A DNA stretch of 64,000 nt, taken from Candidatus Poribacteria bacterium (lineage in GTDB: Bacteria > Poribacteria > WGA-4E > WGA-3G). The translations under genes were made by a program, and so were the position numbers. The stretch covers positions 930,001 through 994,000 of the forward strand of contig OY282386.1 in NCBI GenBank assembly GCA_958295945.1, given 5' to 3'. Positions 3-10,641 of this stretch are shown here, piece by piece; position 1 is the stretch's first letter, and each line of letters opens with the position of its first letter. The notes below the pieces were generated by a model. The model was not told the origin of the DNA, did not search any database, and worked only from the letters and a program-made list of their open reading frames with translations.

Positions 3-452
3 TTTAGCTTATGTTTGATTGGGTGTGAGCGGCGAACATGGGAGAATAGTCTCGACTCGCCAGACCAGATAGGTCTGGCAGTCGTTGACGCTCTTAATCG
101 CAAAGACTTTGAGCAATTAAACAGGTTGAGAGTTCAACGAGATGAGTATGTATCCTGGATTTATCCAGGTTTTCCAAAAAATAACTTTCCATCTGATTTC
201 GCATGGAACAATCTCAATAAAAAATGTAACATCGGAATGAAAAGGTGGATTCAGGCTTACGGTGATCTCAACTTAAGCTTTATAAGTATAAGTTTTAAAA
301 GACCGAAAGAATCTTATGGAGGTTTCCATCTACTACGGGGAACCGTTTTGACGTTAAAGGACATCTCAGGAAAAAAACTGAAATTGGATATATTGGGTTC
401 TGTTGTTGTGATGAATAACCGTTATAAATTGCTCAGTTATGATGACGGGTAA
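3..452 (+). CDS. Lipoprotein of unknown function, 5' end outside the window
   Basis: The frame is open to the left edge of the window. The residues just inside the edge read FSLCLIGCERR, a hydrophobic stretch ending in L-I-G-C, which fits a lipobox with the lipidated Cys encoded at about 24-26. The gene therefore starts upstream and the TTG at 15 is not a real start. The mature part is about 143 residues, soluble, with several Trp, Tyr and Phe residues (for example VSWIYPGFPKNNF). I do not recognise a family. Inferred location: membrane-anchored in the periplasm. The lipobox is seen directly; function is unknown. Confidence 0.6.
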   Translation, partial: FSLCLIGCERRTWENSLDSPDQIGLAVVDALNRKDFEQLNRLRVQRDEYVSWIYPGFPKNNFPSDFAWNNLNKKCNIGMKRWIQAYGDLNLSFISISFKRPKESYGGFHLLRGTVLTLKDISGKKLKLDILGSVVVMNNRYKLLSYDDG

Positions 453-6262: not shown

Positions 6263-6868
6263 TTAAATAGTAGGAGTTTCATAACACCAGGGTCTGAAGT
6301 TTAGTCGAAAATTGTGTAAACCACAACAAGTTTCCATAACTAAGTCACAAAACCCTTTCTTCCAATTTCTGAGTTTATCTTTGACAATACGGTATCTTTT
6401 GACACCACTAATGGCATGTTCAACACGTATGCGTATAGACGCTATCTTTCTATTGATTTCTTTTTCTTTTTCTCTCAGTTCTCCACCTTTCGGTTTTTTC
6501 TTCGGTTGAACGATGTGGACATCAGGAAGAGTGAACCCCTGAAAACCGGTATCTTGATACAAGGTGCTTCCCGGGGGCACACAATAGCCAACCTGATCAG
6601 CTATGTATTTGTCATGGTGTCTTCCTTCAAAAGAGGGTGTCAATAGGACGACTTTGCAGCTTTCATTGATAATCAGATTATTTTTTACTGTATGACATTT
6701 CTTTTTACCGCTATAATATGCCTTTTGAGTTTCTGGGTCTCTTGGACGTCGTATTCGCCGTTCTATACCATCATGAAAAAAAATATTCTTTATCTTGACT
6801 TTGACTTGATACCTCACAAGTATCACACGTAGATGTGGGAACTGTTTCCCGAGATGGCAGCTCTCCAA
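6263..6868 (-). CDS. IS427-like transposase, second frame (DDE catalytic part)
   Basis: Continues the transposase of the preceding frame. It holds the DDE nuclease: first Asp in FFHDGIERRIRRPRDPETQ, second Asp in LYQDTGFQGF, and Glu in IRVEHAISGVKRYRIVKDK. The coding end is only 14 bases from the left tip of the element. The first residues of the open frame are out-of-frame sequence of the first part, so translation is expected through the shift at the eight-T run rather than from an independent start. Confidence 0.8.
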   Translation of the reverse strand: MESCHLGKQFPHLRVILVRYQVKVKIKNIFFHDGIERRIRRPRDPETQKAYYSGKKKCHTVKNNLIINESCKVVLLTPSFEGRHHDKYIADQVGYCVPPGSTLYQDTGFQGFTLPDVHIVQPKKKPKGGELREKEKEINRKIASIRIRVEHAISGVKRYRIVKDKLRNWKKGFCDLVMETCCGLHNFRLNFRPWCYETPTI

Positions 6869-7211
6869 GTTCTGCTAATGCGGTGTTCAATATCGGTAAA
6901 AGCAAGTGAATCCATTTATTCGCAAGAGGTTGAGCCATACCAAAGAGCGTGCCGAATAGAACCTGTTTCGGAGCTTCATGAAGATAAATTAATATAAATA
7001 GCAACATATCTTCATGTGAAGCAAAACAACTATTTTTGTAGGGTTTATATCTCCGTTTTATGCGCGGTTTTCCATCAAGGGTCCGTGTTTCCATATAAGC
7101 TAAAAAACATTTAGAAAAATGAGGTAATAGTTTTGTAAACTCTTCTAAAGTATATCCAGTGAGAGATAGAAGCGTCCCAGCTTTGTCCTTAATATCTTCA
7201 AAAACGATCAT
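6771..7211 (-). CDS. IS427-like transposase, first frame (HTH part)
   Basis: 146 residues. A helix-turn-helix Tnp_4 type N-terminal region includes TGYTLEEFTKLLPHFSKCF and HEDMLLFILIYLHEAPKQV. The frame ends about 20 residues after the point where the second frame takes over. GGAGG stands 7-8 bases before the ATG at 7211. The overlap with the second frame contains a run of eight T on the coding strand (+ strand 6776-6783). Joining the frames there needs a +1 (or -2) shift, by ribosomal frameshifting or transcriptional slippage; alternatively the element is inactivated by a one-base indel. Confidence 0.8.
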   Translation of the reverse strand: MIVFEDIKDKAGTLLSLTGYTLEEFTKLLPHFSKCFLAYMETRTLDGKPRIKRRYKPYKNSCFASHEDMLLFILIYLHEAPKQVLFGTLFGMAQPLANKWIHLLLPILNTALAELGELPSRETVPTSTCDTCEVSSQSQDKEYFFS

Positions 7212-7335: not shown

Positions 7336-7666
7336 GGGTGTGTGGAGTTTTTGGTACTAACTTCCTACCACCCATTGTAGTGCGGGGTCTCCGTGCCCCG
7401 CCATCTTTCAATCTACCAACAACTGCGGGTAACGGAGACCCGGGGAATCATGGCAAATACCAAACGCGTATTCGTCTAAGCGCATTCATAACCGGGGAAC
7501 GCCAAAAGGCGTTCATACCGTTGATTTCTTGATTTGGCGCTTTGTAAGCGCGCTGGACTTTGATCTCAAATTACGCTATTTATTTCTTAATCCTCATCAG
7601 GCGTTCATACCGTTGATTTGTACTACAATGGTTAATGTGAAATTTTGCCAAAGACTTTACACACCC
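7336..7666. mobile_element. Miniature inverted-repeat element, type A, copy 1
   Basis: Flanked by inverted termini: GGGTGTGTGGAGTTTTTGG at 7336 and the complement of GGGTGTGTAAAGTCTTTGGC ending at 7666. The same termini bound elements at 11844-12018 and 23288-24664. There is no transposase. The interior (331 bp in total) is a mosaic of short hairpin repeats: a GCGGGG...CCCCGC palindrome near 7382-7403 and two copies of the module GGCGTTCATACCGTTGATTT (7508-7527, 7600-7619). No target duplication is visible, so the copy is probably old. The rest of 7289-7770 shows no gene. Confidence 0.6.
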
Positions 7667-7770: not shown

Positions 7771-8898
7771 CTAACTTCTGAACAGGTCAAGATACTTTTC
7801 AAGAACAAACAGACGACCTTGAGTGTGTCCTCTGATTTGAGTGAGTATCCCCATTTCTACCAGAGATTTAAGCAGTCGATTCGCACTTGAAAAACTTATT
7901 TCTAAGACTTTTTCGACGGACCTCACACTTAGTATTGGAGTCATATACATCTGTTGAAGTAATTTTTGTGCATTTTTCGTACGAGCACCAAGAGTTAAAA
8001 TCTTTCTCTCATATTCCTCACGGAGGATGATAATAGATTTGTAGGTCTCTATCCCATCTTGTGCACTCTCTACCAATACATTTAAGAAAAAGATAATCCA
8101 CTGTTCCAAGTCACTGTCTGTCCGAACTTTAGTTAGAGAATCATAATATGTACTTCTATGTTTCTCAAAAAATGTGGACATATAAATGTTAGGTTTACTC
8201 AAGATGTTTGCATCAATAAGCTGCAACACAATCAATAACCTTCCACATCTACCATTTCCATCCAAAAAAGGATGAATCGTTTCAAATTGATAATGACTAA
8301 TTGCTATTTTAATGAGATCAGGCAGTTGTAATGATTTGTTATGCCAGAATTTCTCCAAATCGCTTAAAAGGTCTGGAACTTCTTCAGGTGAAGGTGGAAC
8401 AAAAATTGCATCAGAAAGCGAAGATCCACCGATCCAATTTTGACTTCTCCGAATTTCTCCTGGTGCTTTATGTTTACCACGCACACCTGACATCAATATC
8501 TTATGTACTTCCTTTAAAAGTCGTATTGACAATGGTAATTTGGGTAATCTGGAAATTGCATAGTTCATTGCATCAATGTAATTTTGGACTTCTTGCCAAT
8601 CGTCACGTCGCTCAGGATTAATCTCCGCAACTTGTAATAAAGTTTCATCAAGTTCAGTTTTAGTTCCTTCAATTTGATTGGAGTAAGTTGCTTCTTTTGC
8701 AATGTTCATTGGAATGAAAAAATCTACATCTTGACGAATTGTTGTATAGGCATTTAACTCACCTAACAGTTTTGCCCCCTGTTCTATTAATACATCTATC
8801 TCTGGATTTACCCATGCAATTTGACGATTAACAAATGAGGGTGTGAAACTCCTATATTCTTGTTGTTCTCTGTAATTTCCAGCTGTATATTTATTCAT
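7771..8898 (-). CDS. Fic-domain protein with C-terminal winged-helix region
   Basis: About 375 residues. The Fic core motif reads HPFLDGNGRCGR (about residues 209-220), matching HPFx(D/E)GN(G/K)R. The family transfers AMP or another nucleotide moiety to target hydroxyls. The N-terminal inhibitory motif (S/T)xxxE(G/N) is present as SNQIEG about 130 residues before the Fic motif, which marks a class II, self-inhibited Fic protein. The C-terminal 60 residues (MYMTPILSVRSVEKVLEISFSSANRLL...) look like a DNA-binding winged helix, so the protein may bind its own promoter. A TTG at 8901 is followed at once by ATG at 8898, which I take as the start. Three operator-like palindromes lie just upstream. 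Confidence 0.88.
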   Translation of the reverse strand: MNKYTAGNYREQQEYRSFTPSFVNRQIAWVNPEIDVLIEQGAKLLGELNAYTTIRQDVDFFIPMNIAKEATYSNQIEGTKTELDETLLQVAEINPERRDDWQEVQNYIDAMNYAISRLPKLPLSIRLLKEVHKILMSGVRGKHKAPGEIRRSQNWIGGSSLSDAIFVPPSPEEVPDLLSDLEKFWHNKSLQLPDLIKIAISHYQFETIHPFLDGNGRCGRLLIVLQLIDANILSKPNIYMSTFFEKHRSTYYDSLTKVRTDSDLEQWIIFFLNVLVESAQDGIETYKSIIILREEYERKILTLGARTKNAQKLLQQMYMTPILSVRSVEKVLEISFSSANRLLKSLVEMGILTQIRGHTQGRLFVLEKYLDLFRS

Positions 8899-8925
8899 CA
8901 ATATTTGATAACCAGTAAAATGATA

Positions 8926-9031
8926 TTGTCATTTTTGCATGTTTTTGACAATTCCGAAATCTATATTATCATTTTTACCTGTTTTTGACAACAGAATTGA
9001 TAATATTGTCATTTTCGCGCTATTCTGACAA
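8926..9031. promoter_or_regulatory. Array of three operator-like palindromes upstream of fic
   Basis: Three 26-bp inverted repeats of form TTGTCA-N14-TGACAA stand at 8926-8951, 8966-8991 and 9006-9031. The second has TTATCA in its left arm. Start-to-start distance is exactly 40 bp both times, and the interiors are T-rich and similar (ATTTTTGCATGTTTT, ATTTTTACCTGTTTT, ATTTTCGCGCTATTC). The array occupies the gap between fic and the oppositely bounded Gfo/Idh/MocA gene. It is most likely the binding region of the winged-helix part of the Fic protein or of another repressor. Confidence 0.6.
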
Positions 9032-9060
9032 TGTCATGTTCAGAATTATCTGGACAGATC

Positions 9061-10110
9061 CTACCAGTTATCTCTTGTAACATACAGCGAACGATTTTCC
9101 ATAGGAAGTGTGACCCGTTGACCACCCAAACGACTTGATTCAATCATACCCATCAACGTTTCTTGACTGCGACGGGCAAGATGCGCAGGTCCCTTTGTTT
9201 CTCTGTCTTCATCAAGTGCCTCTGCAATGTCAGTAATTCCCATAACAGTACCAGTTGCACGAGATACATCAGGAAACGGAACTTCTTCATAGAATGTACC
9301 CTGCTTCTTACGGAACTGGATTTCTCTACTGTTATTTTGGATACGGATTTTACCACCAGTCCCACAGACTTCATATTCAGGACCAGTGCCAGCAGTATTA
9401 TATCCGTGAACTCCATTTGCATAACGGATATACCCACAGTGAATTCCAGGATCAACTTTCAAGCAGTTACCATCCCAATCAGAGTCTTTACAAGAGATTG
9501 TGCCTTGAACAAAGTCAACTTCTGGATCTTTAGCCAAAAACAGGAGCATGTCAGCAGCATGTGTCAATCCCCAGAGTGCTGAGCCTGCACCATATTGCGC
9601 AATAGTACACTGGATATCTCCAATTTCACCTGCCTCAACAAGCTCACGCACTTTGCGATAAATAGGCATGTAACGTCGTTGTGTTCCATAGTTAAATTTA
9701 ACCCCATGCTTTTCAACAACATCCACTATGATATCTGCTTCTTCCATAGAGCAACAGAGTGGTTTTTCACAATATATCCCCTTAACACCATTTTCTGCTG
9801 CAAAGACAGTTATATCTGCATGTGGACCGGGACGTGTAGCAATACAAACGATGTCAGGTTTCTCCTTCTCAATCATCTCTTGATAATCTGTATAGGCGCG
9901 TTCTGCTCCATAACGTTTACGTATTGCTTCTGCTTTCTCTTCAAAGACATCTGAAACGGCAATAAGATGAGTTCTTTCACAAGCAACGGCAGCCGCTGCA
10001 TGTGAGAAAGGTTGCCAAATAAAACTATCGGGACGGTTTGCAACCTCATCATCTATCGTTGCCCCCATCCGTCCACATCCAATTAAAACGGTCTTATATG
10101 TATGTCCCAT
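9061..10110 (-). CDS. Gfo/Idh/MocA-family oxidoreductase
   Basis: 349 residues. The N-terminal Rossmann fold shows VLIGCGRMGATIDDE, and the family motif EKPLCCSMEEADIIV carries the EKP lysine. The C-terminal half is the Gfo/Idh/MocA substrate domain. These enzymes oxidise or reduce sugars and inositols with NAD(P). There is no signal peptide. GGAGG lies 6 bases before the ATG at 10110. It is likely a single-gene unit, isolated by the fic operator array on one side and repeats on the other. The substrate cannot be told from the sequence; nearby sugar-acid dehydratase and sulfatase genes hint at uronate or sulfated-sugar breakdown. Confidence 0.9.
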   Translation of the reverse strand: MGHTYKTVLIGCGRMGATIDDEVANRPDSFIWQPFSHAAAAVACERTHLIAVSDVFEEKAEAIRKRYGAERAYTDYQEMIEKEKPDIVCIATRPGPHADITVFAAENGVKGIYCEKPLCCSMEEADIIVDVVEKHGVKFNYGTQRRYMPIYRKVRELVEAGEIGDIQCTIAQYGAGSALWGLTHAADMLLFLAKDPEVDFVQGTISCKDSDWDGNCLKVDPGIHCGYIRYANGVHGYNTAGTGPEYEVCGTGGKIRIQNNSREIQFRKKQGTFYEEVPFPDVSRATGTVMGITDIAEALDEDRETKGPAHLARRSQETLMGMIESSRLGGQRVTLPMENRSLYVTRDNW

Positions 10111-10248: not shown

Positions 10249-10641
10249 GTGCGGTTATGAAACCGCACGATTTACGTCAATTTAAAGGACTTAATCTTGT
10301 AGGAGGGTTTTCCTAACCCCGATAAATACGCTGATAAATACGCTAATGAAGATTATTTTATTGAATGGGCAATTCTCATTTTCTCAAACCCGGTAGGCGG
10401 GGAATGCCAAAAGGCATTCATACCGTTGATTTGGCGCTTTGTCCGCGCGCTAGACTTTGAAGTCAAATTACCCTATTTATTCCTTAATCCTCATAAGTCT
10501 ATTTGACGTTGATTTGGACTGTCCCTTTTTTAGCAACATCAGTGCAGCCTAACTTACCAATTGCACTTTGAAACGTCAGACTCATAATCCTGTAATCTAC
10601 TAATCCCGGTGAATGCCCAATGGCATTCATACCGTTCATTT
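10249..10641. repeat. Cluster of short hairpin repeats in a gene-free stretch
   Basis: The 840-bp gap 10111-10953 has no convincing gene. It holds GTGCGGTT/AACCGCAC with loop ATGA (10249-10268); a tandem 12-mer GATAAATACGCT (10321-10332, 10333-10344); a block at 10346-10397 that recurs at 23410-23458; a hairpin GAATGCC-AAAA-GGCATTC (10402-10419) followed by CATACCGTTGATTT; and a second such hairpin GAATGCC-CAAT-GGCATTC (10611-10628). The block 10429-10498 also resembles 7531-7596. These are interspersed REP-like repeats. Confidence 0.65.

Follow-up and report, generated by a model that had tools for sequence, protein, structure and literature searches.

A ladder of palindromic half-sites in front of a class II fic gene from Candidatus Poribacteria is likely a self-operator, at which the Fic protein would bind its own promoter and repress its own gene. 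Fic proteins with a winged helix are widespread and are counted among phage-defence systems. We analysed a window of 64,000 nucleotides (contig OY282386.1, positions 930,001 to 994,000) from a poribacterial genome that consists of one contig of 5.34 Mb, together with the upstream regions of fic homologs. Sequence comparison yields five lines of evidence: the array itself, its restriction to fic in the source genome, its recurrence upstream of homologous genes, a common core flanked by exchanged arms, and a recognition helix, in the Fic protein encoded next to these arms, that covaries with them.

On the minus strand, a gap of 162 bp (8899-9060) separates fic from an oxidoreductase gene upstream of it, and nearly all of the gap is occupied by the array. 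The features of this region are:

9061-10110, minus strand: Gfo/Idh/MocA oxidoreductase gene, the upstream neighbour of fic, which bounds the intergenic region
9026-9051, minus strand: putative operator dyad 4, the weakest, with AGATAA (5/6) as its outermost half-site; assigned from the half-site ladder
8986-9011, minus strand: putative operator dyad 3, TGACAATATTATCAATTCTGTTGTCA; exact match to TGAYAATAT-N11-TTRTCA and part of the ladder
8946-8971, minus strand: putative operator dyad 2, TGATAATATAGATTTCGGAATTGTCA; exact match to the same pattern and part of the ladder
8906-8931, minus strand: putative operator dyad 1, TGACAATATCATTTTACTGGTTATCA; exact match to the same pattern and part of the ladder
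8986-8991, minus strand: candidate -35 element TTGTCA, inside dyad 3; with the -10 element below, at a spacer of 17, the highest-scoring sigma70-like pair in front of fic
8963-8968, minus strand: candidate -10 element TAATAT, inside dyad 2 and of the extended type (TGA just before it); the other half of that pair
7771-8898, minus strand: fic, encoding a 375-aa class II protein that resembles Fic adenylyltransferases; open reading frame, Pfam and PADLOC

The array runs from 8906 to 9051 and comprises eight half-sites of 6 bp (TGAYAA or its complement), which alternate in strand at an exact 20-bp step (8906, 8926, 8946, 8966, 8986, 9006, 9026, and 9046). Each of the first seven is TGATAA or TGACAA, and the eighth (9046) is AGATAA, a 5/6 fit. 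A sequence-only reading had described three TTGTCA-N14-TGACAA palindromes at 40-bp spacing. The spacing is exact and the repeat is real, with two exact copies at 8926-8951 and 9006-9031, but the left arm of the middle copy (8966-8991) is TTATCA, a mismatch in one of the six arms, and the array is longer, with four dyads in a register that is probably shifted by 20 bp. The repeat is far above chance: the three-palindrome pattern matches 35 of 36 arm letters versus at most 23 after dinucleotide shuffling of the intergenic DNA (2000 shuffles), and the seven-half-site ladder matches 40/42 versus a maximum of 31 in 5000 such shuffles. The same reading placed the sites on one face of the DNA, which holds only approximately: with 10.5 bp per turn, a 40-bp step amounts to about 3.8 turns.

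Searching the whole 5.34-Mb genome for exact TGAYAATAT-N11-TTRTCA returned three matches, all inside the fic array. No wider regulon emerged: TTGTCA-N14-TGACAA with one mismatch occurs at 33 sites genome-wide versus 17 for a reversed control, but the sites outside the array lack the conserved interior. On the minus strand of the array (8906-9051), A-runs lie about 10 bp apart (AAAAA-N5-AAAAA) within the TTGTCA-N14-TGACAA palindromes. Such phased runs could bend DNA intrinsically; they are kept in Poribacteria and not in other phyla.

Half-sites alternate every 20 bp, so two families of palindromes use identical arms. In one register, TTGTCA-N14-TGACAA, the centre is A-rich and asymmetric and doubles as the promoter spacer. 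In the other, shifted register, the array forms four 26-bp dyads of the type TGAYAATAT-N11-TTRTCA at a 40-bp step. Core symmetry in the source-genome array is only partial. A palindrome scan of the homologs that made no use of the core found perfect 13/13 palindromes at L031 (TGCCAATATGGGATCCCATATTGGCA), L042 (TCAAAATATAGAATTCTATATTTTGA), L052 (TGGAGATATGGATATCCATATCTCCA), and L055 (TTGAGATATAAATATTTATATCTCAA), all in the shifted register, which is therefore preferred by about 3 to 1; the 26-bp dyads are probably the better candidate for the dimer site. A higher interior symmetry of these dyads (4.6 versus 2.7 of 7 pairs) is biased by the selection for a symmetric core, and we do not count it as evidence. 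It is conceivable, though doubtful given the perfect palindromes, that the true dimer site is the TTGTCA-N14-TGACAA register. All arms are common to both registers, two loci (L085 and L152) are symmetric in that register as well, and the half-sites of CccR, the Yersinia Fic protein considered below, face outward as they do there.

The array recurs upstream of fic genes elsewhere, a check that the sequence-only reading had proposed. Among poribacterial relatives with a 67-74% identical Fic, 29 of 29 carry at least one such site upstream. The TTGTCA-type motif (at most two mismatches) is present at 24 of these 29 loci, mostly 62-64 bp upstream and often repeated 40 bp further upstream, and the remaining five (L032, L038, L041, L042, and L043) keep the 40-bp layout with arms of the TC[A/G] type. 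A ladder test that ignores arm sequence gave p<=0.01 for 45 of 155 homologs, with about 1.5 expected. Homologs from other phyla retain the layout with different 6-bp arms flanking a common core, TATRRAWWTYYATA. When we scored this core with any palindromic arms, 51/157 fic upstream regions contained a dyad at a threshold of >=17/20, versus 14/2643 control segments from the same loci and contigs. Distances between dyads within a locus were exactly 40 bp in 38/65 cases, 80 bp in 5/65, and 120 bp in 1/65. With sites picked by the core alone, the two arms of a dyad agreed at 4.05/6 positions and arms of separate dyads at the same locus at 4.41/6, versus 2.48/6 for arms from different loci. Thus, the arms are particular to each locus and are repeated there as a set, a pattern that marks a single cognate reader at each locus. 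Together, these comparisons support the assignment of the array to fic.

One upstream gene group is common to 23/30 poribacterial loci. Conserved neighbours were rejected as the source of the conservation of the array, which occurs in at least four other upstream contexts and in other phyla too. Nor is the operator common to all Fic proteins: ladders at p<=0.01 were found for 0/8 homologs of 38-42% identity, and GC-rich proteobacteria mostly have none. By the ladder and dyad tests, some half of the homologs have no recognisable array, and most of these belong to GC-rich Pseudomonadota. Four loci with a 38-42% identical Fic (L179, L182, L184, and L240) have upstream palindromes with other centres, for example TTAAAGAAAACATCGTTTTTCTTTAA and CGATCATAAAATGCGTTTTTTGATCG, and these may represent another type of operator. 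At another locus (L051), from Candidatus Parcubacteria bin JAGLTA010000066.1, the fic gene is 61-62% identical and is preceded by two perfect poribacterial array units at 40-bp spacing, reflecting either horizontal transfer or mis-binning.

We place the start of fic at ATG 8896-8898, the residue at which aligned homologs begin; the listed open reading frame opens one codon earlier, at TTG 8901. The protein matches Pfam Fic_N (64 bits) and Fic (71 bits), and its parts are:

8665-8682, minus strand: inhibitory motif SNQIEG, residues 73-78; S73, E77, and G78 do not vary across an alignment of 66 homologs
8239-8274, minus strand: catalytic FIC motif HPFLDGNGRCGR, residues 209-220; alignment of the 66 homologs
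7777-7935, minus strand: predicted C-terminal winged helix-turn-helix, residues 322-374; AlphaFold2 model
7855-7893, minus strand: predicted recognition helix, residues 336-348; AlphaFold2 model; S337 and R341 best track the operator arms

Seven positions of the FIC motif (H209, P210, D213, N215, G216, R217, and R220) are invariant in the 66 homologs, and HPFLDGNGRCGR agrees with the class II form HPFx[D/E]GN[G/K]RxxR. SNQIEG agrees with the class II [S/T]xxxE[G/N] helix that lies N-terminal to the FIC motif, which confirms the earlier assignment to class II from an SxxxEG motif. A C-terminal winged helix, which the same reading had described for many class II Fic proteins, is also found, in a confident AlphaFold2 model (mean pLDDT 94, pTM 0.92; above 89 for residues 322-374), with a strand at 322-324, helices at 325-332 and 336-348, and a wing of strands 353-356 and 362-365. 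The nearest solved folds are those of SoFic (TM about 0.8), followed by Mycobacterium marinum Fic; 7xux, which we take to be the CccR structure, and CbFic2 match more distantly (TM about 0.6). Neither phages nor plasmids yielded a near relative of this Fic, the best phage match being 31% and the best plasmid match 43%.

To ask which part of Fic tracks the arms, we scanned 8-residue windows of the protein against arm differences between loci, after removing overall divergence (residues 1-310). The top window was 335-342 (SFSSANRL), at the start of the recognition helix, with a partial r of 0.39 (59 loci); windows outside the winged helix came to 0.19 at best (59 loci). For the first 47 loci, window 335-342 gave a partial r of 0.40 and a permutation p of 0.0005, although partial Mantel tests of this kind may overstate significance. 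The single sites that best track the arms are R341, ranked first, and S337. A G at arm position 2 is found at 22/23 loci with Arg341 and at 1/36 without it. Loci fetched after this rule had been formed behave alike: G2 occurs in 3/3 with Arg341 and 1/10 without (Fisher p 0.014). Within Poribacteria, loss of Arg341 (SANL, STSL) coincides with a change of the arms from TGAYAA to TC[A/G]TAA or TCAAAA. There are exceptions, namely L033, which combines Leu341 with TGA arms, and L074 and its relatives, which combine Arg341 with CTCCAT arms. On the tree, each trait changed about six times, and independent pairs were concordant in three cases, opposite in none, and neutral in one; a sign test falls short of significance because the independent pairs are too few. 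We propose a rule in which Arg341 would specify G2 of the arm, Leu341 would specify TC arms, and His340 with Arg341 would specify TGCGAA (two loci).

The sequence-only reading had left the binder as either the Fic protein or a phage-type repressor. Since the arms covary with the recognition helix of Fic itself, Fic is favoured over a separate phage-type repressor. A separate regulator, encoded by the host or a prophage, could still bind the array and control fic; palindromes in front of genes often serve regulators encoded elsewhere. We consider this quite improbable, because the arms shift in step with the recognition helix encoded in the same gene, while other parts of Fic track them less well, the layout accompanies fic across phyla, and the exact dyad occurs only at fic in the source genome. 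It is also formally conceivable that the repeats are mere tandem sigma70 promoters (TTGTCA as -35, TAATAT as -10) that were duplicated and involve no repressor. The dyads do overlap a candidate sigma70-like promoter, and TTGTCA-N17-TAATAT with an extended -10 is the best-scoring promoter upstream of fic both here and in many relatives. However, L023-L030, L033, and L039 have a consensus TTGACA-N17-TATAAT promoter directly upstream of, and apart from, one separate operator copy, and arms from other phyla depart from promoter consensus (CTCCAT, GTAAAA, TGGAGA, and TGCGAA) yet remain palindromic at 40-bp steps. We regard the tandem-promoter explanation as highly improbable. A consensus promoter just upstream of an operator copy is also consistent with repression. 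The source array, unlike those loci, holds its promoter elements internally.

As the dyads overlap the candidate -35 and -10, repression is the likeliest consequence of binding. In the self-operator model, the winged helix of Fic would read the 6-bp arm (TGAYAA) with the first part of its recognition helix, and each 26-bp dyad (arm-TATRRAWWTYYATA-arm') would hold two subunits. Dyads placed over the promoter at 40-bp steps, perhaps filled cooperatively, would then allow bound Fic to block RNA polymerase, and this self-repression would hold a potentially toxic AMP-transferase at a low level. Leaky expression is toxic in the case of the SoFic homolog from E. coli (PMC12249575). Alternatively, Fic might bind the array mainly to set its enzyme state, so that the dimer on DNA is either inactive or deAMPylating, or it might act as an activator of transcription. 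Binding of DNA by the C-terminal HTH of Coxiella CbFic2 causes the protein to dimerise and changes its (de)AMPylation (PMC10628234), and eight half-sites exceed the needs of simple repression. We nevertheless think this unlikely, as overlap with a candidate promoter is the usual place for a repressor and the sole tested Fic operator, that of CccR, is repressive (PMC9755527). A more speculative proposal, which we hold to be improbable, is that the array acts as a DNA antitoxin that keeps Fic as inactive DNA-bound dimers. Loss of DNA or displacement of Fic during phage attack would induce the gene and release active enzyme, and arms would diversify under selection against cross-repression between neighbouring Fic systems.

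Self-repression by a Fic protein is itself a known idea. HTH domains fused to Fic were proposed in 2009 to regulate fic expression (PMC2686095), and CccR of Yersinia pseudotuberculosis, a T6SS effector, binds and represses its own promoter, as determined by gel shift, footprint, and reporter assays (PMC9755527). Like CccR, the poribacterial Fic is a class II Fic with a C-terminal HTH and has inverted repeats near the candidate -35 and -10 of its own promoter. The CccR half-site, ATGATAATCT, resembles the poribacterial TGATAATAT, and the 70 A between the DNA-binding helices of CccR (PMC9755527) is close to a 20-bp half-site step (about 68 A), a match of arithmetic only. The operator geometry differs: CccR has a single pair of 10-bp repeats with 26 bp between them (PMC9755527), in contrast to the 20-bp ladder and 40-bp dyad repeats seen here, and no family of arm-swapped operators has been described for it. 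We infer that the poribacterial Fic works like CccR at an operator of different architecture.

SoFic of Shewanella oneidensis, which PADLOC and DefenseFinder list as a defence system, has the same arrangement of domains and the same fold (TM about 0.8 to 3eqx and 3zcn), at 27% identity. The protein matches the PADLOC SoFic profile (369.8 bits, E 4.2e-111, residues 14-374), whereas it scores 158.3 bits against a cut-off of 550 for the NCBIfam SoFic equivalog NF046030, and is therefore SoFic-like and not an equivalog; it may likewise act against phages. DNA binding by SoFic was still undemonstrated in 2023 (PMC10628234). CbFic2 of Coxiella burnetii (structure 8cil) is likewise a Fic with a C-terminal HTH that binds DNA, but random DNA was used, no cognate operator was reported, and its targets are host histones (PMC10628234); its fold is also a more distant match than that of SoFic. 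The Phd-Doc type II toxin-antitoxin system resembles ours in having a Fic-fold toxin and autorepression at palindromic operators. There, the antitoxin Phd binds DNA, whereas the poribacterial Fic carries the DNA-binding domain on the enzyme itself, and the self-operator model makes an antitoxin gene unnecessary.

In the literature searched, CccR was the only winged-helix Fic protein with a known operator and we found no other Fic operator family, nor an earlier report of the ladder architecture, its spread over phyla, or the arm-to-helix rule. If the self-operator model is correct, sequence would suffice to locate the operators of dozens of fic genes across many phyla, and the simple arm-to-helix rule would make DNA recognition by Fic directly testable and reprogrammable. 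Negative self-control would then be a common check on Fic toxins, beside the inhibitory helix or an antitoxin.

Two mobile or repetitive elements lie around fic. Directly downstream, an IS transposase occupies 6263-7211 on the minus strand in two overlapping frames, HTH_Tnp_4 (6771-7211) and DDE_Tnp_4 (6263-6868), which may reflect a programmed frameshift or a broken gene. A 29-bp repeat, ATTTGGCGCTTTGTCCGCGCGCTAGACTT, flanks the fic region on the plus strand at 7532-7560 and 10429-10457, with three mismatches between the copies. Both sit in longer similar stretches with GGCATTCATACCGTT and look like members of a dispersed poribacterial repeat family.
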